Assembly: GCA_964036295.1 (NCBI GenBank)
Contig: OZ038465.1
Span: 12,238,667 to 12,302,666 of the forward strand
Direction: 5' to 3'
Length of the DNA stretch: 64,000 nt
Source of the DNA: Plumapathes pennacea
Taxonomy: Eukaryota; Cnidaria; Anthozoa; Antipatharia; Myriopathidae
Shown in pieces: positions 27,474 to 64,000 of this stretch; the first letter of the stretch is position 1, and every line of letters begins with the position of its first letter. Position numbers and translations under genes: made by a program. The notes beneath the pieces were generated by a model. It did no database searches. It saw only the letters and a list, made by a program, of their open reading frames with translations, and was not told where the DNA came from.

Positions 27474-27519
<46 letters not shown>

Positions 27520-33684: not shown

Positions 33685-33688
33685 TACA

Positions 33689-33718: not shown

Positions 33719-33719
<1 letters not shown>

Positions 33720-38296: not shown

Positions 38297-39169
38297 TTAG
38301 TCTGAAGTGCTAGTGATTGTAGCTGACCCTCTCGCAAGCGACACATTTAAAATTTCAGACAATAATTATAGTTGCTTAGGTGATTGGTCTGGGTCTCGGA
38401 TCTAGAATTTTCTTTACCTGATGCTGATGTGACCAATGTTTCAGTGATGCTTTCTAATTGCTCTGCCTAACGTGACGCACGTAGGGGAACCTTAGCGATA
38501 CAATATAGAGTATGTCTCGAATTGATGTGTATATACATTATTGATGAGAAGTCGAAGAGAAGAAGAGAAGTTACGGTAATATTTTAAGGGAAGGGGTAGT
38601 CCAGCCGTAACTTTTCATATTCTAATGCTGAAAGAAAGCAGCTCATGCAGCGCTACGATTCAAAAGGCAGATTTACTCGGAATGATTTAAAGCGGTAGGA
38701 GTTTGAAAATATTCTTTACAGAATTTCACCAATCTTGACTTCAAAAGTCTCTCCAGAAGGTTGGATGGGCGGGCGTTAAGCTAACACTGTATAGCAAATT
38801 CCGTTAAATATTTTGCCGTGCACATACGCGAACAAAAGAGATCGGTTACACTACGTGAAGAGCAACAGTTTGAGCGTTGTAGCATGATAAGTTTCAATAA
38901 CTCAGTCACAAGACGATGTACAGAGGCGAAAATGTACCGAGGTTCTCATCTGAAGATGATCTCTTTATTGGTGGAATAGGCAATATTCGTATTCTCATGC
39001 GTCCTCGGAGAATGGGCCGACTTCTGTATCAGATCGAGGCTAATGCGGGCCGATATGAATAGTACACACCGCTGTAGGTGTAGTTTGAGCACGATGAGAA
39101 GTCCGCACTCCAATTGGACATCAACCCAAGCGGGTTTGGAAGGCTGACATTTACATTAACCTTTAGCTT

Positions 39170-39383
39170 CCTTCGATCACATCCGTGGTGCTTTCGTCCT
39201 TGTCTATAGCATCCAGATGAAATTCCTGTGCTTTTACGACCAGTTCTACTGATTCAATGTTGTTTTCCTGGGAAAGCGCGATTCCTTGTTTCTGCAAAAA
39301 CGCTTTAGCTCTGGAACTCTCCAATTACTCAGTTCTTTTCCCGCCATCTTGAAGATTTTGATCCGCACTTGCTTCGATTTCAT
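39170..39383 (-). pseudogene. SAP-domain-like N-terminal relic, KLF block
   Basis: Reading from the ATG at 39345-39347 (or 39381-39383) the frame gives KELSNWRVPELKRF, then a single missing T breaks it; the next frame continues FLQKQGIALSQ and ESVELVVKAQEF. The pattern (ELKRFL..GI) resembles a SAP DNA-binding helix-turn-helix as found at the N-terminus of some transposon-derived proteins. Assignment is tentative. Confidence 0.4.
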
Positions 39384-40126
39384 TTGAATTTATAAACTCT
39401 CTCCAGGCTGCCCGAGAAGAGTATTGCCTATTGACATTATTCTCTTCCTCGGAGTGAATCATCCAAACTCTCGGAAGTAGGGTAATACGAAGCAAGCATA
39501 ACATTGTAGCGTATTATGCTGCAATGCTCAAACTGCAGGTAGTCGCTAATTCTAATGTTTTCACATGACGGATAGCGCTTAAATGAGTTCAGATGTTCTC
39601 TATTGTCTATAGTTTAATCCCTGAGCCCTGCGGGGGTACTAATCCAGACTGTTATTTTATTTTTGGATTTTGCCATCCCGGAGTTGTGACGATACGATTT
39701 TGCGAAAGTTTTGCGTGAATCCGTTTGCATTCTTTCATATAAAGAAAAACGCAGGTGTAGTGAATATTACCTCGAGAAGGTTAAACAGCTCCGAACAGGA
39801 AACGGAAGGGCGCTAGAAGGGCGGATTTCTACACGACGTTTTGCAAATACGGGGTCAACCTCGATACGAAAGGAAACGTTTCAGGGGAAATGTTTCAGAA
39901 AATTAACAGAAACGGCAGAATTCAGTTATACGCAGTATCTATATGTATATAGTTTTGTGGACGATTTCACGACATTGGACGGTTTATTTTTTACCCCATT
40001 TCTCCTGTTGTACGTCATGAACTCTGTTTAGCAGTATTTAACCAGTTCACACAAATTTGCATCTGTATTTATAGTACGTATTCCATATATGGAACAACCG
40101 GACGAGCAAATACCTGGCCCTGGGCC

Positions 40127-40363
40127 CGGTTTTTCGAAAGCCGATTAAGCTAATCCAGGATTAACGAAATTATTTCTCTTGACCTCTCTGCCAATAAACT
40201 GCAGAGTTTTGTTCGAAGATGGATTAATAAGCTTGTTTTAGCTGAAAACGTATCAAGAAAATCGTTGCAGGACAAAACCTTCACATTTTTAGGCTTATAA
40301 ATGACAAGAAAGTTTACACCTAATCCAGAATTAGCCTAATCGTGCTTTGAAAAACCGGGCCCT
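40127..40363. mobile_element. nested GGCCCGGTTTTTCGAAAG-type MITE
   Basis: GGCCCGGTTTTTCGAAAGC at the left is mirrored by GCTTTGAAAAACCGGGCC at the right, inside the 9-bp-TSD element. Copy 2 of the host element (45210-45998) lacks it. CCTG flanks both sides, possibly the target duplication. Confidence 0.6.
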
Positions 40364-40502
40364 GATGAGCAAATACACAACCTTGAATAATAATTAGCCG
40401 TAAATACGTGGCGCACGAGCAAATTCGTGGCATTGAATAATAATTAGCCGTAACTTTGCAACTGGATAAACAGTGTTTGGATTATAGTTTAGACTTAGAT
40501 TT

Positions 40503-40555
40503 AAGGTTAGGGTTAGGGTTAGGGTTAGGATTAGGGTTATGGTCAGGGTTAGGCC
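40503..40555. repeat. telomere-like (TTAGGG)n tract, copy 1
   Basis: Four perfect and several mutated TTAGGG units on the plus strand within the 9-bp-TSD element. Confidence 0.85.
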
Positions 40556-41147
40556 GTAATTTTCGTAGATGTATATGTATTTCTCACTCGCATCAATTCA
40601 ATTTACGGCTAATTATTATTCAAGGTTGCGTATTTGCTCATTGGGCAATGTATTTGCTCATCAGGGCCAGGTATTTGCTCGTCCGGTTGTGCCTTATAAG
40701 GAATACGTACTATATATACCTATCCAAATTTAGCAAATGCATAGCGTGACCCTTTTATTGAGTCATTTTCCGCAACATTGACCACAAATAGATATTCGTA
40801 GCATTTTTAAGGGATTTCGTCTCGTTCGTGACACAACTTTTTCCGTCGCATATGACTTGGAGGTTCTTCCAATGGAACAAATATTTTCAGTATGTATTTT
40901 TGTTAATTTCAAGTTAGTTAATAAAATGAAAATAATATTCTTTTCATGATATGGAAAGCACACACATGCATACATACAAATGTCGAGAAAAAGGTTAAAG
41001 AGAAAAACGACGCGTGTTATACTGGTCTAAATATAAACTTTTCTTTGTTCTCGGTTATAGACTGGCATGGTTTTCAACCAATCAGAGCACGTGTACTATC
41101 AAAGTTATTTTTATAACTAAAACTTAAATTAGCGTTTAGATATATTG

Positions 41148-41490
41148 CGCCGATAGAGAACTGTAGTGAAGATCAATTACAAAGCTTACAAAAGTACTGT
41201 AGAATGGCTAATGGGAATGCCACTCTCCAAAGAATGGATTTTAAGGCTTTATCAGTTCAATCAATTCCGAATTTTATGTCTGATTTTATATTATGTTAAG
41301 TCAATTTAAATTTATAACATTTACACATATACACGTAGCTAGATTAGATTAGATTCATGATATTTACATATACATACGTAGCTAGATTAGATAGTTTTAC
41401 ACACGACCCCACAAAGCGGTAACGCTTAAACTTTATCATGTTTAAATAAAGATCATTGAGTGATTGATTGATTGATTGATTGATTGATTG
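41148..41490 (+). mobile_element. 5'-truncated non-LTR retrotransposon tail
   Basis: The paralogous site near 33857 reads AGATATATTG-CTAAATGTTG without interruption; here 343 bases intervene. The insert ends AATAAAGATCATTGAG plus (TGAT)n, and the target itself ends in ATTG. An open frame of about 45 codons at its left end stops at a TAA near 41298 and may be the C-terminus of a reverse-transcriptase ORF; that is a guess. Confidence 0.65.
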
Positions 41491-43165
41491 CTAAATGTTG
41501 AGGTCCCACCACCACTAACCCTAAACGAACTATCCTGCAGATTGGTGTTCGACGAGATTGATTTTGATTTAAAATGGTGTCACTTCATGCCAACTATGCC
41601 GGGAGTGTTTTACAGGTAAGCTTTCCAATAGTATGGAAGTACATTAAAACTGACTCAAACAGCACGTGGCTCAAACAGCACGTGGCTTAAACAGCAACGA
41701 GCGCGGATTGATGTATTTTCTACGAGTCATTCGTTATCACCAAATAGTTTAAACAAACGCAAACACACAACTGGTTCAAGGAGTCATTAGTAAAATCGCC
41801 ATACCAATGCTGTTATGGTCATCACTACCACTAATACTGACTGAAATCTCCTGAAAATTGGTGATCAACGAAAGAGGCTTTGTTTCAAATGTGCTTAAAC
41901 GAACACATCTTGATATATTTTCCACATTCGTTATCACCGAATCGTCTAAAATAAACGCAGACACAACTACTCAGGGTATCAATGATAAGGTATACCCCCC
42001 AAAATGACCACTTTCCAGCATATTATTTTTAAATGGCATCAACTGGCTAAATATAGGCATGTTATATATCAACTATTTGTAACAATAACTATTTGTTATT
42101 GAATTTTCTAGTTGCTGCTTATAGTGTATGTTATTGATACCAAATATGACAAACGTTATTGTTCAATCATCGACGTCATAGGTGTTTTTATATTTTTTAC
42201 TTAATATCCCTCGGTATTAAACCGATTGGAACGAAACCAATGATATATGAAAGGGCCCATGGGGGTCTGAAAAGCTGTGTCTCAGTTTTTATAAGTTTTG
42301 CTTCAAAATGCTTTTATGATTTTTTAAATTTCAACAATGTGAGAAATTTTTACAGTTTACAATAAAACGTTCATAAAAAATGTTTGAAGCAAAATTTCAA
42401 ATTTCTGAGACACTTTTTGTAGACCCCTATTAGCTATCATATGCCCTTGGTTTCGTTTCGATCGGTTAAAAAGTGAGGGACATTAAGTCAAAAAAATATA
42501 TATGTGGCGTCACTGATTGCGCAATAGGTTCCTCAAGCTCAATATCCATGGCAACCACCACCAAAAATTAATGTGCTGATTTGCAGCAAACATTTTGATA
42601 TAATAATCGCATGCCAATGTTTCATGTTTTTTGTCAAGTAAAAAAATATTAAACATGTATGACATATTTTGGGAGAGTGATACCTTAAGAGAAGTATGTC
42701 AGTAAGCATGACCATGATTACCATTTTAGGGTATAATCCGGGATAGTAAAACATTATTCATAGTTTCAATTTCTAATTGGTGATCTAGAATCCGTATGTT
42801 CAGTAATTGTACAGGGGGAATTCGGTCATGGTATCAATCACATTTGGGAACATATCTGAGAAAGCATATCTGGACGTGTGACGTAAGATCAAATGTGCAG
42901 AAATTAGGAGAGGCATACCAAGCATTTGTATGAATAGGCTCGTTATGGTTTTCAGGCAATCCATGGAGATTCAAACTACAAAACTTTGCAGCCCTATTTG
43001 AGTCTCTTGCAGTAGAACATAATAATCCTATAGGTGTCGTGACGTCATGTAATATGTCTGCATACATGTTTGCCACACATACATATGCATTATATACTCA
43101 GTGTCTGTTCATGCAGTAACACTTCACACACATCCTACCCGATATGTAATCAGTGCATCAATTGT

Positions 43166-44078: not shown

Positions 44079-44648
44079 TCAATCTTCTTGGCTTTTCGTG
44101 GCCTGTGACTGTTGTGCTTCTGGGTGAATTTTTTTGATATGCGCTGCTCGGTGGTCAGACCGACTGAATGGCCTTCCGCACTGAGGACATCGATACGGCT
44201 TTTCACCGGTGTGTCTACGAAAATGTCGCTTGAGCTCATCAGACCTCCGAAACTTCCAGCTGCACTCCTTCCACGGACAAATGAAAGGCTTTTCTCCCGT
44301 GTGGATCCGACCGTGAGTACAAAGGTGCGAGCTCTTTTTGAAACGGTTGCCACAGCCTGGAAAACCGCAAGTGAATACGCGATCCTCCTTAGGCACCTTT
44401 AAGCGATTGATACAGACAGTAAATTGAGGGATCTTGGCATTATAGATGGCGCTTGCTCCAGACATATTCTCCCTTTTTTCTGGATAAGGCATTTCGGACG
44501 TGCATGCAATTTCAGCGTAAAAACAGCCATTTCTACGTAGTTCAAACTGGCAATCACTCCTCTGAGAATTTGCTTCAGCCATTTCGGCTCGCGTGCTACA
44601 GGGTTCTAAACAAGTCGTGGAATGACTTGCGCACAAGTAGTGGTCCAT
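44079..44648 (-). CDS. KLF-like three-finger C2H2 transcription factor, copy 2
   Basis: Intact 189-codon paralogue of the frame at 37727-38296. By hand I count nine base differences: five synonymous and four changing residues (Ile/Lys in the N-terminal region, Cys/Arg before finger 1, Thr/Ile before the first Cys of finger 2, Val/Ala near the C-terminus). No zinc ligand or helix residue is altered. It shares the odd arginine in the finger 3 helix. Flanking DNA is duplicated too, so this arose by segmental duplication, not a second retroposition. The array units to the right lack it. Confidence 0.8.
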
Positions 44649-45371
44649 TTAGTCTGAAGTGTTTGTGATTGTAGCTGACCCTCTCGCAAGCGACACATTT
44701 AAAATTTCAGACAATAATTATGGTTTTTTAGGTGATTGGTCTGGGTCTCGGATCTATAATTTTCTTTTACCTGATGCTGATGTGACCAATGTTTCAGTGA
44801 TGCTTTCTAACTGCTCCGTCTAACTTGCCGCACGTATTGGAACCTTAGCGATACAATATATAGTATGTCTTGAATTGATGTGTATATACATTATTGATGA
44901 GAAGCCCCAAGTTACGGTAATATTTTAAGGGAAGGGGTAGTCCAGTCGTAACTTTTCATATTCTAGTGCTGAAAGAAAGCAGCTCATGCAGCGCTACGAT
45001 TCAAAAGGCTGATTTACTCGGAATGATTTGGCATGAATACTTAAAGCGGTAGGAGTTTGAAAATATTATTTACAGAATTTCACCAATCTTGACTTCAAAA
45101 GTCTCTCCAGAAGGTTGGATGGGCGGGCGTTAAGCTAACACTGTATAGCAAATTCCGTTATAAGCTCTGATTTTTTACACGGCGCACCATTTATGGGCGC
45201 CGCTGTATGCATCTGTAGTTATAGTACGTATTCCATAAATGGAACAACCGGACGAGCAAATACCTGCCCCTCATGAGCAAATACATTGCCTCAACGAGCA
45301 AATACGCAACCTTGAATAATAAGTAGCCGAAAATACGTGGCGCACGAGCAAATTCGTGACATTGAATAATA

Positions 45372-45691
45372 GAGCGGTTTTCGGATGACTGTCGAAAGTA
45401 ATTGTGTGATTGCTTTGGTTTTGCGTTTGCTTCGCTTTCGGATTGGTCCACACTAGTTTGTCAGCATGCTCAGCCAATCAGGAACAAAACCAAAACCAAA
45501 ACCAAAACCAAACACTTCTCACGCAAGCGATGGCGTGTACTCGCACTGCTGATTGGAAAGTAAAACCAAACGCAAGACCAAACGCAAATGACTTTGGCTT
45601 CCAATTGGCTGAACTGTTTTCTCTCAGTCTCTGTGATTGGCTTGTGTGATTACTTTGGTTTTGGTTTTCGACAGTCATCCGAAAACGGCTC
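45372..45691. mobile_element. GAGC-TIR MITE with TA target, nested
   Basis: Starts GAGCGGTTTTCGGATGACTG and ends with its complement CAGTCATCCGAAAACGGCTC. The unoccupied site in copy 1 of the host element (near 40434) reads GAATAATAATTAG; here it is split with TA on both sides (45370-45371, 45692-45693). This proves the boundaries and TA duplication. Same family as 8444-8729 and 17955-18287. Confidence 0.85.
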
Positions 45692-45756
45692 TAATTAGCC
45701 GTAACTTTGCAACTGGATAAACAGTGTTTGGATTATAGTTTAGACTTAGATTTAAG

Positions 45757-45815
45757 GTTGGGGTTAGGGTTAGGGTTAGAGTTAGGGTTAGGTTTAAGGT
45801 TAGGATTAGGGTTAT
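45757..45815. repeat. telomere-like (TTAGGG)n tract, copy 2
   Basis: Perfect and mutated TTAGGG units inside the 9-bp-TSD element, as in copy 1. Confidence 0.85.
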
Positions 45816-46304
45816 GGTCAGGGTTGGGCCGTAATTTTCGTATATCTATATGTATTTCTCACTCGCATCAATTCAATTTACGTCTAATTATTATTCAAGG
45901 TTGCGTATTTGCTCATGGGGCAATGTATTTGCTCGTCAGGGCCAGGTATTTGCTCGTCCGGTTGTGTTTTATAAGGAATACGTACTATATATACCTATCG
46001 CTGTATGTCATTATTTTTGCCGTGCACATACGCGAACAAAAGAGATCAGTTACACTACGTGAAAGAGCAACAGAGCGTTGTAGCATGATAAGTTCCAATA
46101 ACTCAGTCACAAGACCATATAAAGAGGCGAAACTGTACCGAGGTTCTCATCTGAAGATGATCTCTTTATTGGTGGAATAGGCAATATTCGTATTCTCGCG
46201 CGTCCTCGGAGAATGGGCTGACTTTTGTATCAGATCGAGGCTAATGCGGGCCTGAATACATATCGCTGTAGGTGTAGTTTGAACACGATGAGAAGTCCGT
46301 ACTC

Positions 46305-46541
46305 TCAGTCGGACATCAACCCAAGCGGGTTTGGAAGGCTGACATTTACATCGATCTTTAGCTTGCCTTCGATCACATCCGTGGGGCTTTCGTCGTCAAG
46401 AGCACTCGGATGCAATTCCTGTTCTTTTACGACCAGTTCTACTGATTCTGGGAAACCGTGATTCCTCTTTTCTGCAAAAACGCTTTTAGCCCTGGAACTC
46501 TCCAATTCTTTTTCCGCCATCTCGAAGATTTTGATCCGCAT
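46305..46541 (-). pseudogene. SAP-like relic, array unit 1
   Basis: A 78-codon frame starts MRIKIFEMAEKELESS. Another frame of the same DNA reads RVPGLKAFLQKRGITVSQ, the expected SAP-like continuation seen in the KLF block, and the main frame rejoins at ESVELVVKEQELH. So the open frame is held together by compensating frameshifts and probably no longer encodes the ancestral helix pair. Confidence 0.4.
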
Positions 46542-47156
46542 TTGCCTCGACTATTTCACTTGAATTTATAAACTCTCCCCAGGCTGCCCGAGAATACGAG
46601 TATTGCCTATTGACATTATTTTTTGTGAATCATGCAAAGTTCAATTAAACTCTCGGAAGTATAGGGCAATACGAAGTAAGCATAACATTGTAGCGTATTA
46701 TGCTGCAATGCTCAAACTGCAGGTAGTCGCTAATTCTAATATTTTCACGTGACGCCGGATAGCGCTTAAACGAGTTCAGATGTCCTCTATTGTCTATAGT
46801 TTAATCCCTGAGCCCTGCGGGGGTACTAATCCAGACTGCTATTTCAGTTTTGGATTTTGCCATCCCGAAGTTGTGACGATGCGAGTTTCCGAAAGTTTTG
46901 CGTGAATCCGTTTGCATTCTTTCATATAAAGAAAAACGCAGGTGTAGTGAATAAGCGGTAGTGAATATTACCTCGAGAAGGTTAAACAGCTCCGAACAGG
47001 AAACGGAAGGGCGCTATAAGGGCGGATTTCTACACGACGTTATGCAAATACGCGGTCACCCTCGATACGAAAGGAAACGTTTCATATAAAGGCCACGGTT
47101 TCAGGGAAAATGTTTCAAAAAATTAGCAGAAACAGCAGAATTCAGTTATACGCAGT

Positions 47157-47369
47157 GAATGAATGAAACCTTTGTTTACCCACGGTGAAGATTACATCAA
47201 CTGTTACTCTAGATACTAGATACTAGTTGGTTTTCATGTAAGCCGTGCACTAACTACCTAAGATACCATATAAGTACGACTAGCCATGATATAAAATATC
47301 AAAATAATAACTATGATATAAAAACAGACTAACTATGAAATAAAATATAACACTTTATTCTTAATATGT
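47157..47369 (-). mobile_element. minus-strand retroelement tail in array unit 1
   Basis: The KLF block (near 39934) and the right inverted arm (near 33314) run directly from the CAGT end to TCTATA; here about 213 bases intervene, with GAATGAATGAA at the left and TTTATT near the right. Read on the minus strand this is a 3' end with AATAAA and an (ATTC)n tail. All array units carry it at the equivalent place (about 51314, 55449, 59601, 63763), so it predates amplification. Confidence 0.5.
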
Positions 47370-48150
47370 CTCTATATGTATATAGATTTGTGGACGATTT
47401 AAGGATATTGGACGATATATTTTTTACCCTATTTCTCCTGTTGTATGTCGTTAACTCTGTTTAGAAGTAGTCAACCAGTTCACACAAATTTAGAAAATGC
47501 ATAGAGTGACTCTTTTATTGAGTCATTTCCGCAACATTGACCACGAATAGATATTCGTAGCATTTTTAAATGATTTTGTCTCGTTCGTGACTCAACTTTT
47601 TCCGTCGCATGACTTGGAGGTTCCTCTAATGAAACAAATGATGCAAACCGCTACTCTTCAGTATTTAGGTTTGTATACTTATAAAAATAATAGTCTTTTC
47701 ATGATGTGGAAAACAAATGCATACATACATATGTCGAGAAAAACGTTAACGAGGAAAACGACGCGTGTTGTCTAAAACAAAACTTTTCTTTGTTTTCGGT
47801 TACAGACTGGCATGGTTTTCAACTATTCAGAGCGCGTGTTCTATCAAAGTTATTTGTTATGACTAAAACAATGTAAATTAGCCATTAAATATATCGCTAA
47901 ATCTCTTACAGAAATGTGATGGACTCTTAATGTGTAACCACACACTCTGGAGTTGGGTCACCTGCTTCCTTGCTGATTCTACAGAGAATATTCCTGAGTC
48001 ATTATTGCATCTTGTGTTGTTGAGTTCATAGTCATAGATCATGGGAGTTATACGGTCTAAATGGGAACATGCCACGTGGAGGCAGTGGAATTCAGTTAAC
48101 GTGCATGATCTTGTTTTGTTGTTTTTGTTATAATATTTTCATTTTATTAG

Positions 48151-48228
48151 GAACAGTTCGAGCAATGCTGCAAAACTTAGGAAAAATACTTCAGCAAGGA
48201 CTCATTCACGAAGTAACTGCAAAACATG
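48151..48228 (+). other. exon-like segment of array unit 1
   Basis: Bounded by TTTATTAG and GTGAGA, with the open frame TVRAMLQNLGKILQQGLIHE. It recurs in units 2-4 (about 52292, 56434, 60586); unit 4 has a frame-breaking change. It may be an exon of a lost gene or transposon protein. No family recognised. Confidence 0.3.
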
Positions 48229-48305
48229 GTGAGAAGTAAATTCCTTCCCTGATAATAGTTGCTACTATTGCTACTACCAGTACCACTACATTATACTATT
48301 ACTGC

Positions 48306-48355
48306 CAACTACTACTACTACACTACTACTATTACTACTACTATTACTGGTATAA
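48306..48355. repeat. (TAC)n-type microsatellite in each array unit
   Basis: Imperfect ACT/ATT triplet run. Units 1 and 2 share one allele, units 3 and 4 a longer one (about 56590 and 60748). Confidence 0.85.
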
Positions 48356-48473
48356 AACGATCAGTACTATTACTAACTGAAGTACTACTTCTATTGCTAT
48401 CATTATATACTAGTACTATAATATCACTTGTATATGTTCTACTTCTGATGATGCTGCTGTTTCTACTATAATA

Positions 48474-48932
48474 TAGTCGGTAATTCGAACCTACGCGAAC
48501 TAAAATCGATTTCACCTGCTTTTGCTTTATATATTTACTGTAATTTTACCCCCAGTAACTCAACCTCTGACAATTTCAACCTCCCGCTAACTCGAAGTGA
48601 TTTCGTTTCCCCTTCAGCTCATTTTCTTTATAATTATACCCTTGATAACTCGAACCTCATCTTCCAAAGTCAAAACATACAGATGTAATCCACAATACTG
48701 AGTTTATTAGTGTATACATTTTCCTTTGTGTCAGCAGTTTTTGTTAATAGGAACTCTGAACAGGAACTCAGCAAATCATACGGAACCAGTGTTCATCAAG
48801 ACGTACTGCTGAAAAGTACAGTTGTTTCTTTATAGTGTCAATGAATTTCTTCTGTCCCTTGAAGTTCCCGACTCCCGATAACATTTTCGATTTCCCTTGG
48901 AGGTTCGAGTTGTCAGGATTCAACTGTACTAT
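48474..48932. repeat. pogo-like TIR relic in array units
   Basis: GTCGGTAATTCGAACC at the left and GGTTCGAGTTGTCAGGATTC at the right, with several AACTCGAACCT-type repeats inside, resemble the 18407-18583 element. Ends are decayed. Present in all complete units. Confidence 0.4.
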
Positions 48933-49214
48933 ACTTTTCAGTACTTGATGCTGTGCTACTCTTATGGGACGGCCACGTCTGAATGTGCGAACATTAGCGT
49001 CAAGAATCCCAACTGAGCTCTAGTGATTCTACTTTGCATCATATATTCGTCACAAATATCATGGCAAGAAAACTTGCATGCTTGGCATGTTTAGCACTGA
49101 TACAGTCGGCAAAGTTCAAACCACACTACATCCGTTATTTATAGCACCTTCTCGTGCTAGTAAAAATAAAAAGCCTACACACTGTCCACTAATCCTAAAC
49201 GAATTTTCCTGCAG

Positions 49215-49288
49215 AAGAGTGTTCGACGAAACTGATTTTGATTCAATGGGTCTCACTTCATACCAACTATGCCGGGAGTATTTTACAG
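49215..49288 (+). other. exon-like cassette a of array unit 1
   Basis: 74 bases between CCTGCAG and GTAAGCTTT. A homologous segment in the KLF block (33909-33982) reads in one frame as a Cys-rich peptide with CHSCQLCREC. In array units the first cysteines are lost. Coding status uncertain. Confidence 0.3.
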
Positions 49289-49693
49289 GTAAGCTTTCCA
49301 ATAGTATGGACAGTAAAACTGGCTCAAACAGCACGACGTGGTTCAACCAGCAACGAGCACGGATTGATGTAGGTTCCATGGACAAGTCATTCGTTATCAC
49401 CAAATAGTGCAAACACACGCTAACACAACTACTTCTTTAAGGAATCAGTACTACAGTGGACAAACTAAGGCTGTTTTGGTCACTACCAACACTAATACTG
49501 ACATTTATGATCAACGACTTTGATTCAAATAGGCTTAAACGAGCACGTCTTGATGTATTTTTCACATTCGGTATCACCGAATAGTCTATGAAAAACACAA
49601 ACACAATTACTCAGAGGGCATCAGTCATCAATGTCGACATTTTAAAGCAGTTAGGTCAACAGGACCACTAATGCTAACTGAAATCTTCTACAG

Positions 49694-49770
49694 ATTGGTG
49701 ATTATCAAAGCAGGCTTTGATTCGAATCATGGGCCTCACCACATATCAACTATCCCGGCACACGGAGGAG
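49694..49770 (+). other. exon-like cassette b of array unit 1
   Basis: 77 bases between TTCTACAG and GTAAGCTTT, alignable in part to cassette a (CATACCAACTAT against CATATCAACTAT, same donor). It suggests an internal exon duplication before the unit was amplified. Confidence 0.3.
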
Positions 49771-50309
49771 GTAAGCTTTTGTATGTATAATATACGTATG
49801 CGTGTATCACGAAGCACGAGGTTCATTTCGTTAAAGCAGCAACGTTTCCGGCGATATTTATAAGAGTATTTCTCAACATATGTCACTTAATGAACTTTGA
49901 GAAACAACACAATCTTCATCGATGGAGAAACGTTTTATTCTTTTAACATATATGCTTAGGTGTGCAGGTGATATTGGCTTAGTTTCTGGTACGGCAGAGA
50001 GGCAGGGAAAAAATATATATGATACATCAAGCTACGCTACGAAAATTTCTGATCGTTGTTCTGTGGCAAGCTAAATGGCTCAATCACCAAGCATATCATG
50101 TCCTCGGAAAATCACAACAGTCAAACCAGATGTGCCATATGCATCATTTATGGGAGCCGCTGTATGTCATTATTTTTGCCGTGCACATACGCGATCAAAA
50201 GAGATCGGTTACACTACGTGAAAGAGCAACAGTTTGAGCGTTGTAGCATGATAAGTTCCAATAACTCAGTCACAAGACCATATAAAGAGGCGAAACTGTA
50301 CCGAGGTTC

Positions 50310-50708
50310 TCATCTGAAGATGATCTCTTTATTGGTGGAATAGGCAATATTCGTATTCTCGCGCGTCCTCGGAGAATGGGCCGACTTCTGTATCAGATCG
50401 AGGCTAATGCGGGCCGATATGAATACATATCGCTGTAGGTGTAGTTTGAACACGATGAGAAGTCCGTAGTCTGAGTCGGACATCAACCCAAGCGGGTTTG
50501 GAAGGCTGGCATTTACATCGATCTTTAGCTTGCCTTCGATCACATCCGTGGGGCTTTCGTCGTCAAGAGCACTCGGATGCAATTCCTGTTCTTTTACGAC
50601 CAGTTCTACTGATTCTGGGAAACCGTGATTCCTCTTTTCTGCAAAAACGCTTTTAGCCCTGGAAATCTCCAATTCTTTTTCCGCCATCTCGAAGATTTTG
50701 ATCCGCAT
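50310..50708 (-). pseudogene. SAP-like relic, array unit 2
   Basis: Same relic as in unit 1 (EISRAKS in place of ESSRAKS, and DVNASLPNP), open for 132 codons because a downstream stop is absent. Confidence 0.4.
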
Positions 50709-53700
50709 TTGTCTCGACTATTTCACTTGAATTTATAAACTCTCCCCAGGCTGCCCGAGAATACGAGTATTGCCTATTGACATTATTTTTTGTGAATCAT
50801 GCAAAGTTCAATTAAACTCTCGGAAGTATAGGGCAATACGAAGTAAGCATAACATTGTAGCGTATTATGCTGCAATGCTCAAACTGCAGGTAGTCGCTAA
50901 TTCTAATATTTTCACATGACGCCGGATAGCGCTTAAACGAGTTCAGATGTCCTCTATTGTCTATAGTTTAATCCCTGAGCCCTGCGGGGATACTAATCCA
51001 GACTGCTATTTCAGTTTTGGATTTTGCCATCCCGAAGTTGTGACGATACGAGTTTCCGAAAGTTTTGCGTGAATCCGTTTGCATTCTTTCATATAGAGAA
51101 AAACGCAGGTGTAGTGAATAAGCGGTAGTGAATATTACCTCGAGAAAGGTTAAACAGCTCCGAACAGGAAACGGAAGGGCGCTAGAAGGGCGGATTTCTA
51201 CACGACATTATGCAAATACGCGGTCACCCTCGATACGAAAGGAAACGTTTCATGTAAAGGCCGCGGTTTCAGGGGAAATGTTTCAAAAAATTAGAATTCA
51301 GTTATACGCAGTGAATGAATGAAACCTTTGTTTATCCATGGTGAAGATTACATCAACTGTTACTCCAGATACTAGATACTAGTTGGTTTTCATGTAAACC
51401 GTGCACTAACTATCTAAGATACCATATAAGTACGACTAGCCATGATATAAAATATCTAAATAATAACTATGATATAAAAACAGACTAACTATGAAATAAA
51501 ATATAACACTTTATTCTTATTATGTCTCTATATGTATATAGATTTGTGGACGATTTAAGGATATTGGACAATATATTTTTTACCCTATTTCTCCTGTTGT
51601 ACGTGATGAACTCTGTTTAGTAGTATTCAACCAGTTCACACAAATTTAGCAAACGCATAGCTTGACTCTTTTATTCAGTCATTTCCACAACATTGACCAC
51701 GAATAGATATTCGTAGCATTTTTAAATGATTTTGTCTCGTTCGTGACTCAACTTTTTTCGTCGCATGACTTGGAGGTTCCTCTAATGGAACAAATAATGC
51801 AAACCGCTACTCTTCAGTATTTAGGTTTGTATACTTATAAAAATAATATTCTTTTCATGATGTGGAAAACACATGCATATGTCGAGAAAAAAGTTAACGA
51901 GAAAAACGACGCGTGTTGTCTAAAACAAAACTTTTCTTTGTTTTCGGTTACAGACTGGCATGGTTTTCAACCATTCAGAGCGCGTGTTCTATCAAAGATA
52001 TGTGTTATGTATAAAACAATGTAAATTAGCCATTAAATATATCGCTAAATCTCTTACAGAAATGTGATGGACTCTTAATGTGTAACCACACACTCTGGAG
52101 TTGGGTCACCCGCTTCCTTGCTGATTCGACAGAGAATATTCCTGAGTCATCATTGCATCTTGTGTTGTTGAGTTCATAGTCAGACCATGGGTACGGTCTA
52201 AATGGGAACATGCCACGTGGAGGCACTGAAATTCAGTTAACGTGCATGATCTTGTTTTGTTGTTTTTGTTATAATATTTTCATTTCATTAGGAACAGTTC
52301 GAGCAATGCTGCAAAACTTAGGAAAAATACCTCAGCAACGACTCATTCACGAAGTAACTGCAAAACATGGTGAGAAGTAAATTCCTTCCCTGATAATAGT
52401 TGCTACTATTGCTACTACCAGTACCACTACATTATACTATTACTGCCAACTACTACTACTACACTACTACTATTACTACTACTATTACTGGTATAAAACG
52501 ATCAGTACTATTACTAACTGAAGTACTACTTCTATTGCTATCATTATATACTAGTACTATAATATCACTTGTATATGTTCTACTTCTGATGATGCTGCTG
52601 TTTCTACTATAATATAGTCGGTAATTTGAACCTACGCGAACCAAAATCGATTTCACCTGCTTTTGCTTTATATATTTACTGTAATTTTACCCCCAGTAAC
52701 TCAACCCTCGACAATTTCAACCTCCCGCTAACTCGGCGAGATTTCGTTTTCTCTTCAGCTCATTTTCTTTATAATTATACCCTTGATAACTCGAACCTCA
52801 TCTTCCAAAGTCAAAACATACAGATGTAATCCACAATACTGAGTTTATTAGTGTATACATTGTCCTTTGTGTCAGCAGTTTTTGTTAATAGGAACTCTCA
52901 ACAGGAACTCAGCAAATCATACGGAACCAGTGTTCATCAAGACGTACTGCTTAAAAATACAGTTGTTTCTTTATAGTGTCAATGAGTTTCTTTTGTCCCT
53001 TGAAGTTCCCGACTCCCGATAACATTTTCGATTTCCCTTGGAGGTTCGAGTTGTCAGGATTCAACTGTACTATACTGTTCAGTACTTGATGCCGTGCTAC
53101 TCTTATGGGACGGCCACGTCTGAATGTTCGAACATTAGCGTCAAGAATCCCAACTGAGCTCTAGTGATTCTACTTTGCATCATATATTCGTCACAAATAT
53201 CATGGCAAGAAAACTTGCATGCTTGGCATGTTTAGCACTGATACAGTCGGCAAAGTTCAAACCACACTACATCCGTTATTTATAGCACCTTTTTGTACTA
53301 GTACAAATAAAAAGCCTATACACTGTCCACTAATCCTAAACGAATTTTCCTGCAGAAGAGTGTTCGACGAAACTGATTTTGATTCAATGGGTCTCACTTC
53401 ATACCAACTATGCCGGGAGTATTTTACAGGTAAGCTTTCCAAAAGTATGGACAGTAAAACTGGCTCAAACAGCACGACGTGGGTCAACCAGCAACGAGCA
53501 CGGATTGATGTAGGTTCCATGCACAAGTCATTCGTTATCACCAAATAGTGCAAACACACGCTAACACAACTACTTCTTTAAGGAATCAGTACTACAGTGG
53601 ACAAACTAAGGCTGTTTTAGTCACTACCAACACCAATACTGACATTTATGATCAACGACTTTGATTCAAATAGGCTTAAACGAGCACGTCTTGATGTATT

Positions 53701-54566
53701 TTTCACATTCGGTTTCACCGAATAGTCTATGAGAAACACAAACACAATTACTCAGAGGGCATCAGTCATCAATGTCGACATTTTAAAGCAGTTAGGTCAC
53801 CAGGACCACTAATGCTAACTGAAATCTTCTACAGATTGGTGATTATCAAAGCAGGCTTTGATTCGAATCATGGGCCTCACCGCATATCAACTATCCCGGC
53901 ACACGGAGGAGGTAAGCTTTTGTATGTATGATATAAGTATGCGTGTATCACGAAGCACGAGGTTCATTTCGTTAAAGCAGCAGCGTATCCGGCGATATTT
54001 ATAAGAGTATTTCTCAACATATATCACTTAATGAGCTTTGAGAAACAACACAATCTTCATCGATGGAGAAACGTTTTATTCTTTTAATTTATATGCTTAG
54101 GTGTGCTTATGATATTGGCTTTGTTTCTGGTACGGCAGAGAGGCAGGGAAAAGATATATATGATGTATCAAGCTACGCTACGAAAATTTCTGATCGTTGT
54201 TCTGTGGCAAGCTAAATGGCTCAATCACCAAGCATATCATGTCCTCGGAAATCACAACAGTCAAACCAGATGTGCCATATGAATCATTTATGGGCGCCGC
54301 TGTATGTCATTATTTTTGCCGTGCACATACGCGATCAAAAGAGATCGGTTACACTACGTGAAAGAGCAACAGTTTGAGCGTTGTAGCATGATAAGTTCCA
54401 ATAACTCAGTCACAAGACCATATAAAGAGGCGAAACTGTACCGAGGTTCTCATCTGAAGATGATCTCTTTATTGGTGGAATAGGCAATATTCGTATTCTC
54501 GCGCGTCCTCGGAGAATGGGCCGACTTCTGTATCAGATCGAGGCTAATGCGGGCCGATATGAATAC

Positions 54567-54848
54567 CTATCGCTGTAGGTGTAGTTTAAACACGATGAGA
54601 AGTCCGTAATCTGAGTCGGACATCAACCCAAGCGGGTTTGGAAGGCTGACATTTACATCGATCTTTAGCTTGCCTTCGATCACATCCGTGGGGCTTTCGT
54701 CGTCAAGAGCACTCGGATGCAATTCCTGTTCTTTTACGACCAGTTCTACTGATTCTGGGAAACCGTGATTCCTCTTTTCTGCAAAAACGCTTTTAGCCCT
54801 GGAAATCTCCAATTCTTTTTCCGCCATCTCGAAGATTTTGATCCGCAT
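54567..54848 (-). pseudogene. SAP-like relic, array unit 3
   Basis: Same relic with DVNVSLPNP; the frame stops after 93 codons because of a base change downstream. Confidence 0.4.
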
Positions 54849-57800
54849 TTGTCTCGACTATTTCACTTGAATTTATAAACTCTCCCCAGGCTGCTCGAGA
54901 ATACGAGTATTGCCTATTGACATTTTTTGTGAATCATGCAAAGTTCAATTAAACTCTCGGAAGTATAGGGCAATACGAAGTAAGCATAACATTGTAGCGT
55001 ATTATGCTGCAATGCTCAAACTGCAGGTAGTCGCTAATTCTAATATTTTCACATGACGCCGGATAGCGCTTAAACGAGTTCAGATGTCCTCTATTGTCTA
55101 TAGTTTAATCCCTGAGCCCTGCGGGGATACTAATCCAGACTGCTATTTCAGTTTTGGATTTTGCCATCCCGAAGTTGTGACGATACGAGTTTCCGAAAGT
55201 TTTGCGTGAATCCGTTTGCATTCTTTCATATAGAGAAAAACGCAGGTGTAGTGAATAAGCGGTAGTGAATATTACCTCGAGAAAGGTTAAACAGCTCCGA
55301 ACAGGAAACGGAAGGGCGCTAGAAGGGCGGATTTCTACACGACATTATGCAAATACGCGGTCACCCTCGATACGAAAGGAAACGTTTCATGTAAAGGCCG
55401 CGGTTTCAGGGGAAATGTTTCAAAAAATTAGAATTCAGTTATACGCAGTGAATGAATGAAACCTTTGTTTATCCATGGTGAAGATTACATCAACTGTTAC
55501 TCCAGATACTAGATACTAGTTGGTTTTCATGTAAACCGTGCACTAACTATCTAAGATACCATATAAGTACGACTAGCCATGATATAAAATATCTAAATAA
55601 TAACTATGATATAAAAACAGACTAACTATGAAATAAAATATAACACTTTATTCTTATTATGTCTCTATATGTATATAGATTTGTGGACGATTTAAGGATA
55701 TTGGACAATATATTTTTTACCCTATTTCTCCTGTTGTACGTGATGAACTCTGTTTAGCAGTATTCAACCAGTTCACACAAATTTAGCAAACGCATAGCTT
55801 GACTCTTTTATTCAGTCATTTCCACAACATTGACCACGAATAGATATTCGTAGCATTTTTAAATGATTTTGTCTCGTTCGTGACTCAACTTTTTTCGTCG
55901 CATGACTTGGAGGTTCCTCTAATGGAACAAATAATGCAAACCGCTACTCTTCAGTATTTAGGTTTGTATACTTATAAAAATAATATTCTTTTCATGATGT
56001 GGAAAACACATGCATATGTCGAGAAAAAAGTTAACGAGAAAAACGACGCGTGTTGTCTAAAACAAAACTTTTCTTTGTTTTCGGTTACAGACTGGCATGG
56101 TTTTCAACCATTCAGAGCGCGTGTTCTATCAAAGATATGTGTTATGTCTAAAACAATGTAAATTAGCCATTAAATATATCGCTAAATCTCTTACAGAAAT
56201 GTGATGGACTCTTAATGTGTAACCACACACTCTGGAGTTGGGTCACCTGCTTCCTTGCTGATTCGACAGGGAATATTCCTGAGTCATCATTGCATCTTGT
56301 GTTGTTGAGTTCATAGTCATAGACCATGGGAGTTATACGGTCTAAATGGGAACATGCCACGTGGAGGACTGAAATTCAGTTAACGTGCATGATCTTGTTT
56401 TGTTGTTTTTGTTATAATATTTTCATTTCATTAGGAACAGTTCGAGCAATGCTGCAAAACTTAGGAAAAATACCTCAGCAACGACTCATTCACGAAGTAA
56501 CTGCAAAACATGGTGAGAAGTAAATTCCTTCCCTGATAATAGTTGCTACTATTGCTACTACCAGTACCACTACATTATACTATTACTGCCAACTACTACT
56601 ACTATTACTACTACTATTACTACTACTACTACTACTACTGGTATAAAACGATCAGTACTATTACTAACTGAAGTACTACTTCTATTGCTATCATTATATA
56701 CTAGTACTATAATATCACTTGTATATGTTCTACTTCTGATGATGCTGCTGTTTCTACTATAATATAGTCGGTAATTCGAACCTACGCGAACTAAAATCGA
56801 TTTCACCTGCTTTTGCTTTATATATTTACTGTAATTTTACCCCCAGTAACTCAACCTCTGACAATTTCAACCTCCCGCTAACTCGAAGTGATTTCGTTTC
56901 CCCTTCAGCTCATTTTCTTTATAATTATACCCTTGATAACTCGAACCTCATCTTCCAAAGTCAAAACATACAGATGTAATCCACAATACTGAGTTTATTA
57001 GTGTATACATTTTCCTTTGTGTCAGCAGTTTTTGTTAATAGGAACTCTCAACAGGAACTCAGCAAATCATACGGAACCAGTGTTCATCAAGACGTACTGC
57101 TGAAAAGTACAGTTGTTTCTTTATAGTGTCAATGAATTTCTTCTGTCCCTTGAAGTTCCCGACTCCCGATAACATTTTCGATTTCCCTTGGAGGTTCGAG
57201 TTGTCAGGATTCAACTGTACTATACTTTTCAGTACTTGATGCTGTGCTACTCTTATGGGACGGCCACGTCTGAATGTGCGAACATTAGCGTCAAGAATCC
57301 CAACTGAGCTCTAGTGATTCTACTTTGCATCATATATTCGTCACAAATATCATGGCAAGAAAACTTGCATGCTTGGCATGTTTAGCACTGATACAGTCGG
57401 CAAAGTTCAAACCACACTACATCCGTTATTTATAGCACCTTCTCGTGCTAGTAAAAATAAAAAGCCTACACACTGTCCACTAATCCTAAACGAATTTTCC
57501 TGCAGAAGAGTGTTCGACGAAACTGATTTTGATTCAATGGGTCTCACTTCATACCAACTATGCCGGGAGTATTTTACAGGTAAGCTTTCCAATAGTATGG
57601 ACAGTAAAACTGGCTCAAACAGCACGACGTGCTTCAACCAGCAACGAGCACGGATTGATGTAGGTTCCATGGACAAGTCATTCGTTATCACCAAATAGTG
57701 CAAACACACGCTAACACAACTACTTCTTTAAGGAATCAGTACTACAGTGGACAAACTAAGGCTGTTTTGGTCACTACCAACACTAATACTGACATTGATA

Positions 57801-58600
57801 ATCAACGACTTTGATTCAAATAGGCTTAAACGAGCACGTCTTGATGTATTTTTCACATTCGGTATCACCGAATAGTCTATGAAAAACACAAACACAATTA
57901 CTCAGAGGGCATCAGTCATCAATGTCGACATTTTAAAGCAGTTAGGTCAACAGGACCACTAATGCTAACTGAAATCTTCTACAGATTGGTGATTATCAAA
58001 GCAGGCTTTGATTCGAATCATGGGCCTCACCACATATCAACTATCCCGGCACACGGAGGAGGTAAGCTTTTGTATGTATAATATACGTATGCGTGTATCA
58101 CGAAGCACGAGGTTCATTTCGTTAAAGCAGCAACGTTTCCGGCGATATTTATAAGAGTATTTCTCAACATATGTCACTTAATGAACTTTGAGAAACAACA
58201 CAATCTTCATCGATGGAGAAACGTTTTATTCTTTTAACATATATGCTTAGGTGTGCAGGTGATATTGGCTTAGTTTCTGGTACGGCAGAGAGGCAGGGAA
58301 AAAATATATATGATGCATCAAGCTACGCTACGAAAATTTCTGATCGTTGTTCTGTGGCAAGCTAAATGGCTCAATCACCAAGCATATCATGTCCTCGGAA
58401 AATCACAACAGTCAAACCAGATGTGCCATATGCATCATTTATGGGAGCCGCTGTATGTCATTATTTTTGCCGTGCACATACGCGATCAAAAGAGATCGGT
58501 TACACTACGTGAAAGAGCAACAGTTTGAGCGTTGTAGCATGATAAGTTCCAATAACTCAGTCACAAGACCATATAAAGAGGCGAAACTGTACCGAGGTTC

Positions 58601-58999
58601 TCATCTGAAGATGATCTCTTTATTGGTGGAATAGGCAATATTCGTATTCTCGCGCGTCCTCGGAGAATGGGCCGACTTCTGTATCAGATCGAGGCTAATG
58701 CGGGCCGATATGAATACATATCGCTGTAGGTGTAGTTTGAACACGATGAGAAGTCCGTAGTCTGAGTCGGACATCAACCCAAGCGGGTTTGGAAGGCTGG
58801 CATTTACATCGATCTTTAGCTTGCCTTCGATCACATCCGTGGGGCTTTCGTCGTCAAGAGCACTCGGATGCAATTCCTGTTCTTTTACGACCAGTTCTAC
58901 TGATTCTGGGAAACCGTGATTCCTCTTTTCTGCAAAAACGCTTTTAGCCCTGGAAATCTCCAATTCTTTTTCCGCCATCTCGAAGATTTTGATCCGCAT
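58601..58999 (-). pseudogene. SAP-like relic, array unit 4
   Basis: Encodes the same 132 residues as the unit 2 copy (DVNASLPNP), in keeping with the two-unit periodicity. Confidence 0.4.
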
Positions 59000-61900
59000 T
59001 TGTCTCGACTATTTCACTTGAATTTATAAACTCTCCCCAGGCTGCCCGAGAATACGAGTATTGCCTATTGACATTATTTTTTGTGAATCATGCAAAGTTC
59101 AATTAAACTCTCGGAAGTAGGGCAATACGAAGTAAGCATAACATTGTAGCGTATTATGCTGCAATGCTCAAACTGCAGGTAGTCGCTAATTCTAATATTT
59201 TCACATGACGCCGGATAGCGCTTAAACGAGTTCAGATGTCCTCTATTGTCTATAGTTTAATCCCTGAGCCCTGCGGGGATACTAATCCAGACTGCTATTT
59301 CAGTTTTGGATTTTGCCATCCCGAAGTTGTGACGATACGAGTTTCCGAAAGTTTTGCGTGAATCCGTTTGCATTCTTTCATATAGAGAAAAACGCAGGTG
59401 TAGTGAATAAGCGGTAGTGAATATTACCTCGAGAAGGTTAAACAGCTCCGAACAGGAAACGGAAGGGCGCTAGAAGGGCGGATTTCTACACGACATTATG
59501 CAAATACGCGGTCACCCTCGATACGAAAGGAAACGTTTCATGTAAAGGCCGCGGTTTCAGGGGAAATGTTTCAAAAAATTAGAATTCAGTTATACGCAGT
59601 GAATGAATGAAACCTTTGTTTATCCACGGTGAAGATTACATCAACTGTTACTCCAGATACTAGATACTAGTTGGTTTTCATGTAAACCGTGCACTAACTA
59701 TCTAAGATACCATATAAGTACGAATAGCCATGATATAAAATATCTAAATAATAACTATGATATAAAAACAGACTAACTATGAAATAAAATATAACACTTT
59801 ATTCTTAATATGTCTCTATATGTATATAGATTTGTGGACGATTTAAGGATATTGGACAATATATTTTTTACCCTATTTCTCCTGTTGTACGTGATGAACT
59901 CTCTTTAGCAGTATTCAGCCAGTTCACACACATTTAGCAAACGCATAGCTTGACTCTTTTATTCAGTCATTTCCACAACATTGACCACGAATAGATATTC
60001 GTAGCATTTTTAAATGATTTTGTCTCGTTCGTGACTCAACTTTTTTCGTCGCATGACTTGGAGGTTCCTCTAATGGAACAAATAATGCAAACCGCTACTC
60101 TTCAGTATTTAGGTTTGTATACTTATAAAAATAATATTCTTTTCATGATGTGGAAAACACATGCATATGTCGAGAAAAAAGTTAACGAGAAAAAACGACG
60201 CGTGTTGTCTAAAACAAAACTTTTCTTTGTTTTCGGTTACAGACTGGCATGGTTTTCAACCATTCAGAGCGCGTGTTCTATCAAAGATATGTGTTATGTA
60301 TAAAACAATGTAAATTAGCCATTAAATATATCGCTAAATCTCTTACAGAAATGTGATGGACTCTTAATGTGTAACCACACACTCTGGAGTTGGGTCACCT
60401 GCTTCCTTGCTGATTCTACAGAGAATATTCCTGAGTCATCATTGCATCTTGTGTTGTTGAGTTCATAGTCATAGACCATGGGAGTTATACGGTCTAAATG
60501 GGAACATGCCACGTGGAGGCAGTGAAATTCAGTTAACGTGCATGATCTTGTTTTGTTGTTTTTGTTATAATATTTTCATTTCATTAGGAACAGTTTGAGC
60601 AATGCTGCAAAACTTAGGAAAAATAAGTAGCAACGACTCATTCACGAAGTAACTGCAAAACATGGTGAGAAGTAAATTCCTTCCCTGATAATAGTTGCTA
60701 CTATTGCTACTACCAGTACCACTACATTATACTATTACTGCCAACTACTACTACTATTACTACTACTATTACTACTACTACTACTACTACTGGTATAAAA
60801 CGATCAGTACTATTACTAACTGAAGTACTACTTCTATTGCTATCATTATATACTAGTACTATAATATCACTTGTATATGTTCTACTTCTGATGATGCTGC
60901 TGTTTCTACTATAATATAGTCGGTAATTTGAACCTACGCGAACCAAAATCGATTTCACCTGCTTTTGCTTTATATATTTACTGTAATTTTACCCCCAGTA
61001 ACTCAACCCTTGACAATTTCAACCTCCCGCTAACTCGGCGAGATTTCGTTTTCCCTTCAGCTCATTTTCTTTATAATTATACCCTTGATAACTCTAACCT
61101 CATCTTCCAAAGTCAAAACATACAGATGTAATCCACAATACTGAGTTTATTAGTGTATACATTGTCCTTTGTGTCAGCAGTTTTTGTTAATAGGAACTCT
61201 CAACAGGAACTCAGCAAATCATACGGAACCAGTGTTCATCAAGACGTACTGCTTAAAAATACAGTTGTTTCTTTATAGTGTCAATGAGTTTCTTCTTTCC
61301 CTTGAAGTTCCCGACTCCCGATAACATTTTCGATTTCCCTTGGAGGTTCGAGTTGTCAGGATTCAACTGTACTATACTGTTCAGTACTTGATGCCGTGCT
61401 ACTCTTATGGGACGGCCACGTCTGAATGTTCGAACATTAGCGTCAAGAATCCCAACTGAGCTCTAGTGATTCTACTTTGCATCATATATTCGTCACAAAT
61501 ATCATGGCAAGAAAACTTGCATGCTTGGCATGTTTAGCACTGATACAGTCGGCAAAGTTCAAACCACACTACATCCGTTATTTATAGCACCTTTTTGTAC
61601 TAGTACAAATAAAAAGCCTATACACTGTCCACTAATCCTAAACGAATTTTCCTGCAGAAGAGTGTTCGACGAAACTGATTTTGATTCAATGGGTCTCACT
61701 TCATACCAACTATGCCGGGAGTATTTTACAGGTAAGCTTTCCAAAAGTATGGACAGTAAAACTGGCTCAAAGAGCACGACGTGGGTCAACCAGCAACGAG
61801 CACGGATTGATGTAGGTTCCATGCACAAGTCATTCGTTATCACCAAATAGTGCAAACACACGCTAACACAACTACTTCTTTAAGGAATCAGTACTACAGT

Positions 61901-62751
61901 GGACAAACTAAGGCTGTTTTAGTCACTACCAACACCAATACTGACATTTATGATCAACGACTTTGATTCAAATAGGCTTAAACGAGCACGTCTTGATGTA
62001 TTTTTCACATTCGGTATCACCGAATAGTCTATGAGAAACACAAACACAATTACTCAGAGGGCATCAGTCATCAATGTCGACATTTTAAAGCAGTTAGGTC
62101 AACAGGACCACTAATACTAACTGAAATCTTCTACGGATTGGTGATTATCAAAGCAGGCTTTGATTCGAATCATGGGCCTCACCGCATATCAACTATCCCG
62201 GCACACGGAGGAGATAAGCTTTTGTATGTATGATATAAGTATGCGTGTATCACGAAGCACGAGGTTCATTTCGTTAAAGCAGCAGCGTATCCGGCGATAT
62301 TTATAAGAGTATTTCTCAACATATGTCACTTAATGAGCTTTGAGAAACAACACAGTCTTCATCGATGGAGAAACGTTTTATTCTTTTAATTTATATGCTT
62401 AGGTGTGCAGGTAATATTGGCTTAGTTTCTGGTACGGCAGAGAGGCAGGGAAAAGATATATAAGATGCATCAAGCTACGCTACGAAAATTTCTGATCGTT
62501 GTTCTGTGGCAAGCTAAATGGCTCAATCACCAAGCATATCATGTCCTCGGAAATCACAACAGTCAAACCAGATGTGCCATATGAATCATTTATGGGCGCC
62601 GCTGTATGTCATTATTTTTGCCGTGCACATACGCGATCAAAAGAGATCGGTTACACTACGTGAAAGAGCAACAGTTTGAGCGTTGTAGCATGATAAGTTC
62701 CAATAACTCAGTCACAAGACCATATAAAGAGGCGAAACTGTACCGAGGTTC

Positions 62752-63150
62752 TCATCTGAAGATGATCTCTTTATTGGTGGAATAGGCAATATTCGTATTC
62801 TCGCGCGTCCTCGGAGAATGGGCCGACTTCTGTATCAGATCGAGGCTAATGCGGGCCGATATGAATACATATCGCTGTAGGTGTAGTTTAAACACGATGA
62901 GAAGTCCGTAGTCTGAGTCGGACATCAACCCAAGCGGGTTTGGAAGGCTGACATTTACATCGATCTTTAGCTTGCCTTCGATCACATCCGTGGGGCTTTC
63001 GTCGTCAAGAGCACTCGGATGCAATTCCTGTTCTTTTACGACCAGTTCTACTGATTCTGGGAAACCGTGATTCCTCTTTTCTGCAAAAAAGCTTTTAGCC
63101 CTGGAAATCTCCAATTCTTTTTCCGCCATCTCGAAGATTTTGATCCGCAT
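62752..63150 (-). pseudogene. SAP-like relic, array unit 5
   Basis: Same relic with DVNVSLPNP and a Val-to-Phe change at AKSFF. Confidence 0.4.
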
Positions 63151-64000
63151 TTGTCTCGACTATTTCACTTGAATTTATAAACTCTCCCCAGGCTGCTCGA
63201 GAATACGAGTATTGCCTATTGACATTATTTTTTGTGAATCATGCAAAGTTCAATTAAACTCTCGGAAGTATAGGGCAATACGAAGTAAGCATAACATTGT
63301 AGCGTATTATGCTGCAATGCTCAAACTGCAGGTAGTTGCTAATTCTAATATTTTCACATGACGCCGGATAGCGCTTAAACGAGTTCAGATGTCCTCTATT
63401 GTCTATAGTTTAATCCCTGAGCCCTGCGGGGGTACTAATCCAGACTGCTATTTCAGTTTTGGATTTTGCCATCCCGAAGTTGTGACGATGCGAGTTTCCG
63501 AAAGTTTTGCGTGAATCCGTTTGCATTCTTTCATATAAAGAAAAACGCAGGTGTAGTGAATAAGCGGCAGTGAATATTACCTCGAGAAGGTTAAACAGCT
63601 CCGAACAGGAAACGGAAGGGCGCTATAAGGGCGGATTTCTACACGACGTTATGCAAATACGCGGTCACCCTCGATACGAAAGGAAACGTTTCATGTAAAG
63701 GCCACGGTTTCAGGGAAAATGTTTCAAAAAATTAGCAGAAACAGCAGAATTCAGTTATACGCAGTGAATGAATGAAACCTTTGTTTACCCACGGTGAAGA
63801 TTACATCAACTGTTACTCTAGATACTAGATACTAGTTGGTTTTCATGTACGCCGTGCACTAACTACCTAAGATACCATAAAAGTACGAATAGCCATGATA
63901 TAAAATATCTAAATAATAACTATGATATAAAAACAGACTAACTATGAAATAAAATATAACACTTTATTCTTAATATGTCTCTATATGTATATAGATTTGT

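Follow-up and report, generated by a model that had tools for sequence, protein, structure and literature searches.

The locus considered here raises the question of what an array of long, nearly identical tandem units is and how it arose. The stretch analysed (64,000 nucleotides of Plumapathes pennacea DNA, C4:12238667-12302666, in a genome of 290 Mb in 24 contigs; hereafter the window) ends in head-to-tail copies of a segment of about 4.15 kb. A preliminary description had seen in them a satellite-like array with a dimeric period, whose last expansion duplicated two units together as a block of about 8.3 kb. We find that the array is very probably the outcome of a recent local tandem segmental duplication of the spacer upstream of K2, one of a cluster of KLF-like genes, followed by misaligned exchange that gave rise to five mosaic units.

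Extent and content of the five-unit array

Self-BLAST of the window, together with a BLAST search in which one unit was compared with the chromosome continued beyond the window, delineated five head-to-tail units across window positions 46007-66761 (Table 1), which amounts to an array of 20.8 kb with a copy number of five in one assembly. The head-to-tail organisation and the 4.15-kb spacing from 46007 onwards are thereby borne out, as are the starts given previously for the first four units, while the fifth begins at 62608 and not, as formerly placed, at 62610. The last 2.8 kb of U5 lie outside the window; this unit lacks the final 26 alignment columns of the others and passes unbroken into the remainder of a dispersed repeat. 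Computed over the ungapped columns of all five units, pairwise identity ranges from 97.29% (U1-U4) to 99.11% (U2-U4).

No recognisable gene was found in a unit, in agreement with its characterisation as gene-free. The longest stop-to-stop frames per unit measure 126-135 aa, and 14 of 200 base shuffles matched the length of the 135-aa frame of U2. The frame that had been called "SAP-like" is intact in U2, U4 and U5, truncated in U1 and U3, and matches no Pfam family at E-values up to 1; in an older copy of about 88% identity, stops interrupt it in the one frame read. Given this combination of a missing Pfam match, truncation, a length within the range of chance and stops in an older copy, the proposal of a SAP-like gene does not hold. 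A SAP-domain protein was rejected as a candidate for the unit, no recognisable SAP domain having been found in an intact frame. Across the window ARAGORN predicted no tRNA, and no Rfam family matched at its gathering score. From its sequence, then, we treat the unit as probably non-coding and presumably without function. Elsewhere in the window, positions 9066-9704 hold a frame that matches a PH domain above the Pfam cut-off and Tectonin below it, which we take to resemble a TECPR1-like gene, and positions 21158-23683 hold an open frame of 841 aa that matches no Pfam family at E-values up to 1.

Table 1. Features of the array and its surroundings (positions count from the first nucleotide of the window)
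Feature	Position	Strand	Remarks
Second older partial copy	32237..34308	+	pieces of unit 760-1836 and 3162-3590, about 74-94%
K1	37727..38296	-	KLF-like; 185/189 residues identical to K2
Older partial copy upstream of K1	38811..41974	+	unit 9-1147 at 87%, 1359-1482 at 90%, 1476-1880 at 81%, 3162-3590 at 76%
K2	44079..44648	-	KLF-like, 189 aa, three C2H2 fingers; array upstream of it
Left-flank 21 bp identical to unit end	45188..45208	+	left boundary of duplicated segment
Transposable element, 790 bp	45209..45998	+	imperfect inverted ends, TTAGGG-like repeats; at left edge of U1
U1	46007..50165	+	4159 bp; at the edge of the array; resembles U3 on the right and departs from U2-U4 on the left
U2	50166..54305	+	4140 bp
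U3	54306..58456	+	4151 bp; apparent hybrid: left part U2/U4-like, right part U1-like
U4	58457..62607	+	4151 bp
U5	62608..64000, on to 66761 beyond the window	+	4154 bp; first 1393 bp inside the window

Partial alternation and the mosaic structure of the units

The proposed dimer rested on diagnostic variants at which neighbouring units alternate. These observations were accurate: the six 13-mers that had been quoted fall in units 1-4 exactly as stated, and the Val/Ala series of the "SAP-like" frame (V, A, V, A, V) is exact over U1-U5. The interval from which they came, 48484-50165, corresponds to U1 positions 2478-4159, i.e. to the alternating part of the unit. Among 165 variable ungapped columns, we used 87 to test the grouping of U1-U4, comprising 36 alternating sites (U1=U3 versus U2=U4) and 51 at which U2, U3 and U4 agree against U1, with U5 on either side; the 78 columns left out were private to U2, U3, U4 or U5, showed other groupings or, in four cases, had three states. 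With a single breakpoint set between columns 2203 and 2498, 83 of the 87 sites fall on the expected side, and none of 10,000 random reorderings of the sites did as well. The test was repeated without the 33 of the 51 sites that are private to U1, and hence less telling on the grouping; one breakpoint between columns 1859 and 1868 then sorts 52 of 54 sites, again with no shuffle in 10,000 as good, and the next alternating site beyond it is column 2498.

Counts of differences give the same division. Over the right part of the unit (columns 2498-4100, about 1.6 kb), U1 and U3 differ at 5 of 1579 positions, U2 and U4 at 20 of 1579, and U1 and U2 at 48 of 1579. Over the left part (columns 1-2250, about 2.25 kb), the differences number 9 of 2217 for U2-U3, 13 of 2217 for U2-U4 and 60 of 2215 for U1-U3. 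With sites taken as independent, the disparity between the left and right parts for U1-U3 has a Fisher p of about 1e-9, and that between U1-U3 and U2-U4 within the right part a p of 0.004. By both the site test and these counts, the alternation of neighbouring units stands for the right 1.6 kb and fails for the left 2.25 kb, where U1 stands apart from the mutually similar U2, U3 and U4. Since the left part of U3 is U2/U4-like and its right part U1-like, U3 appears in this one assembly to be a hybrid, of the kind expected from unequal crossing-over or gene conversion. The series is also broken by U5, in which one motif (at 65411) takes the U2/U4 form and another (at 65190) the U1/U3 form; the third occurs there in neither form, its place being absent from the unit.

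A clean dimeric higher-order repeat, in which the last event copied one 8.3-kb block of two units, would draw its support from the 36 alternating sites, 34 of which lie at or right of column 2498, and from the closeness of U1 and U3 in the right part. A single copying of such a block, however, predicts uniform divergence and is rejected on this assembly, since U1 and U3 differ so unequally on the left and on the right. Likeness of the blocks holds for columns 2498-4100 only and not over their full length, and the counts above for U1-U3 and U2-U4 in either part are not those of two complete block copies of equal age. With the left part non-alternating, the copy pairs unequally diverged and U5 outside the series, the claim that the last expansion copied a two-unit block lacks support for whole units, and we consider this course of events quite improbable. 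It survives only with a later conversion of the left part of U3; a two-unit copy followed by such a conversion would give the identical picture, so that more than one order of events may lead to the array as it stands.

The alternation could also be false, if two haplotypes of a shorter array had been strung together in the assembly. Allelic differences can reach the range of 0.9-2.7%, and this is the range of divergence between the units. Yet no two of them are identical (any pair has at least 37 differences, the lowest count being that of U2-U4), every unit has private variants, and U3 is a hybrid rather than an allele of U1 throughout. Moreover, the 144 kb examined contain no N, and the immediate flanks of the array have no near-identical counterpart across it among matches of at least 150 bp, the best being that of the K2 block to the K3 block at about 84%. 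An assembly artefact is thus unlikely, and the assembled count of five units is probably correct.

Boundaries, older copies and the probable course of the duplication

The left breakpoint of the duplicated segment, marked by a stretch of the left flank identical to the unit end (Table 1), lies upstream of K2, about 540 bp from its start codon. Between it and U1 stands the 790-bp transposable element, flanked on both sides by CGCTGTAT (45201-45208 and 45999-46006), an 8-bp target-site duplication that would fit a hAT-type element. Its relatives are abundant in the genome (scoring 40 of the 2701 candidates yielded at least 165 matches), and one of them, also with imperfect inverted ends and internal TTAGGG-like repeats, lies at about 40059-40724 of the window. 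As the element was not found at any of the four internal junctions, it either inserted later than the duplication or was not involved in it. On the right flank of U5, homology to contig C5 is unbroken over 66659-67065, this being the dispersed repeat into which the unit continues, and the four internal junctions cut the same repeat after about 100 bp; hence the right breakpoint of the segment lies inside the dispersed repeat. A few bases at the join, as read by eye, are found in neither flank, and the join may have originated by end-joining. Whole copies of one segment, a novel junction that they share and ancestral continuity at the outer ends characterise the array as a tandem segmental duplication.

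The alternative that the unit is a transposable element or belongs to a dispersed satellite family gains some substance from unit positions of about 1147-1357 and 2469-2907, which are dispersed repeats, and from the many partial matches listed elsewhere by a genome search with the whole unit. Because that search scored 39 of 133 candidates and its matches omitted the array itself, we used three probes taken from outside the widely dispersed parts of the unit, for which every first-look candidate was scored (11 of 11, 8 of 8 and 5 of 5). The probe from unit 455-1095 gave 16 matches. Five of these were the array units, at 98-100%, and one was the older copy upstream of K1, at 87% across 633 of the 641 probe bases; the remaining ten were partial, eight of them close by on C4 and the other two on C1 and C2, respectively. 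The probe from unit 3592-4140 gave eight: besides the five array units, at 96-100%, these were a single partial match close to K1 and short matches on C5 and C12; that from unit 1880-2235 found the five units only, at 96-100%. Genome-wide, then, the three probes revealed no copy of at least 96% identity outside the five units and only partial matches outside C4, so that a transposon or a genome-wide satellite is rejected for the whole unit, in which fragments of dispersed repeats are present, and either origin is exceedingly improbable. Its near-identical, kilobase-sized units lie head-to-tail at this locus only, a trait that the array shares with macrosatellites.

The unit does have older, partial copies in or beside the KLF-like cluster (Table 1). 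The one upstream of K1 is without the dispersed repeat of roughly 210 bp that the array units contain at about unit 1147-1357, for which no clear target-site duplication was seen. Apart from these copies, window positions 27513-28765 hold a tandem repeat of about 410 bp, parts of which match the array unit in inverted orientation at about 68-84%. The older copies also allow a view of which states in the array are derived. Unit-private variants number 33, 9, 4, 10 and 32 in U1 to U5 (chi-square p about 9e-9, in a test that ignores relatedness); 32 of the 33 in U1 fall to the left of column 2350, a region in which no other unit is close to U1, and those of U5 are spread, 10 on the left and 22 on the right. 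At sites where U1 and U5 agree against U2-U4, the U1/U5 state is present at 9 of 11 comparable sites in the copy upstream of K1 and at 8 of 12 in the second older copy, and therefore the inner units share derived states. At the U1-private sites, these two copies carry the state of the other units in 17 of 26 and 12 of 17 cases, respectively; therefore U1 is itself much changed and not simply an unchanged edge.

In the duplication and exchange that we favour, a spacer segment of about 4.15 kb upstream of K2 would have been duplicated by an illegitimate join between the left breakpoint near K2 and the right one inside the dispersed repeat. Once two copies were present, misaligned exchange between chromatids or homologues could have raised their number to five and, by shuffling parts of units, produced the mosaic, with U1=U3 and U2=U4 over the right 1.6 kb and U2=U3=U4 over the left 2.25 kb; crossing-over and conversion may each have had a share in this. 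The transposable element would have landed at the left edge of U1.

The KLF-like gene cluster and comparable systems

A genome search with K2 identified eight closely similar open reading frames (73-100% identity) on the minus strand of C4:12276396-12361548, a span of 85 kb, the next best matches in the genome being of 58% or less over the finger region. The array fills most of the space from K2 to K3. All eight frames are open, and they fall into two types, A (K1, K2, K3 and K7) and B (K4, K5, K6 and K8). A pattern search finds three C2H2 fingers in six of the eight; K4 and K5, the coding sequences of which are identical, lack the first cysteine of finger 1. Among the 28 pairs, dN is less than dS in 27, which are all that differ. 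We take the KLF rule to be three C-terminal C2H2 fingers with CX4C, CX4C and CX2C spacing, and "KLF-like" is a working name based on this finger-spacing pattern; finger 3 of these frames ends in HX4H. When K1 was searched against the PDB, the top chains were Aart, ZNF568, PRDM9 and WT1, with several stretches each, and the first KLF chains were those of KLF4 (E = 3.9e-31).

Duplication has struck this cluster more than once. K1 and K2 lie 6.35 kb apart and are about 91% identical over 2.9 kb; K4, K5 and K6 form a gene-bearing triplication with a spacing of about 9.4 kb, in which the copies differ by 0.74-1.62% and the divergence is similarly patchy; and K3-K4 match K7-K8 at about 90-98% over many pieces. 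The organisation is not that of an isolated satellite, the array being a duplicated spacer within a gene cluster that has gene-bearing duplications of similar identity; it is without a gene because the duplicated segment fell within the spacer. Between K6 and K7, two inverted repeats of 768 bp, 99.3% identical, lie close together (C4:12344743-12347604).

Several known systems invite comparison. In the higher-order repeats of alpha satellite, units alternate at diagnostic sites and form regular multi-unit blocks. The present array shares this alternation in part of its unit; unlike alpha satellite, it has a left part that breaks the period, units of 4.15 kb and a single small locus inside a gene cluster. 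With the human macrosatellites RNU2, D4Z4, RS447 and DXZ4 it shares kilobase-sized tandem units and variation between them, and probably also change of copy number by misaligned exchange. RNU2 alleles are reported to have 5-82 copies of a 6.1-kb unit (PMC4132748), and macrosatellites are described as usually spanning hundreds of kilobases (PMC3599962), whereas the array here has only five copies over 20.8 kb and no gene recognised in its unit. Among anthozoans, almost a third of the predicted genes of two coral genomes are given as tandem duplicates (PMC10236652), and the account of the Nv1 cluster of Nematostella discusses both concerted evolution and birth-death for its highly similar copies, which change in number (PMC9842752). 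In contrast to these tandem gene duplications, it is a spacer and not a gene that has been multiplied five-fold here, and the neighbours are KLF-like. A cluster of three related Sp genes is described in Nematostella (PMC3087555). Topic searches of the literature found no publication on the present array or on an anthozoan KLF gene cluster. In sum, the array resembles a macrosatellite of very small size, or tandem segmental duplications in general, and is one of several duplications at its locus.

The locus is a small and fully readable case in which a repeatedly duplicating gene cluster also multiplies bare spacer DNA. It further implies that an alternating "dimer" pattern can arise from exchange of sub-unit segments in an array of five units, and warns that variants read in one part of the unit are a poor basis for calling a higher-order repeat. 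At some other loci, the repeat number of a spacer or macrosatellite tunes dose. That the five-fold spacer is likewise a regulatory array for K2, offering five copies of the region upstream of the gene together with promoter, enhancer or first-exon elements, is a speculative idea to which we attach a very low probability; if true, copy number would tune the dose of a fast-duplicating KLF-like factor. The cluster itself, with eight genes of two types, may be of interest for studies of anthozoan transcription-factor families. As a separate observation on the genome, the mitochondrial COX1 gene (code 4) on C24 is interrupted by an intron-like stretch, an arrangement that would fit a sea anemone or another hexacoral; the stretch holds a frame of 232 aa.
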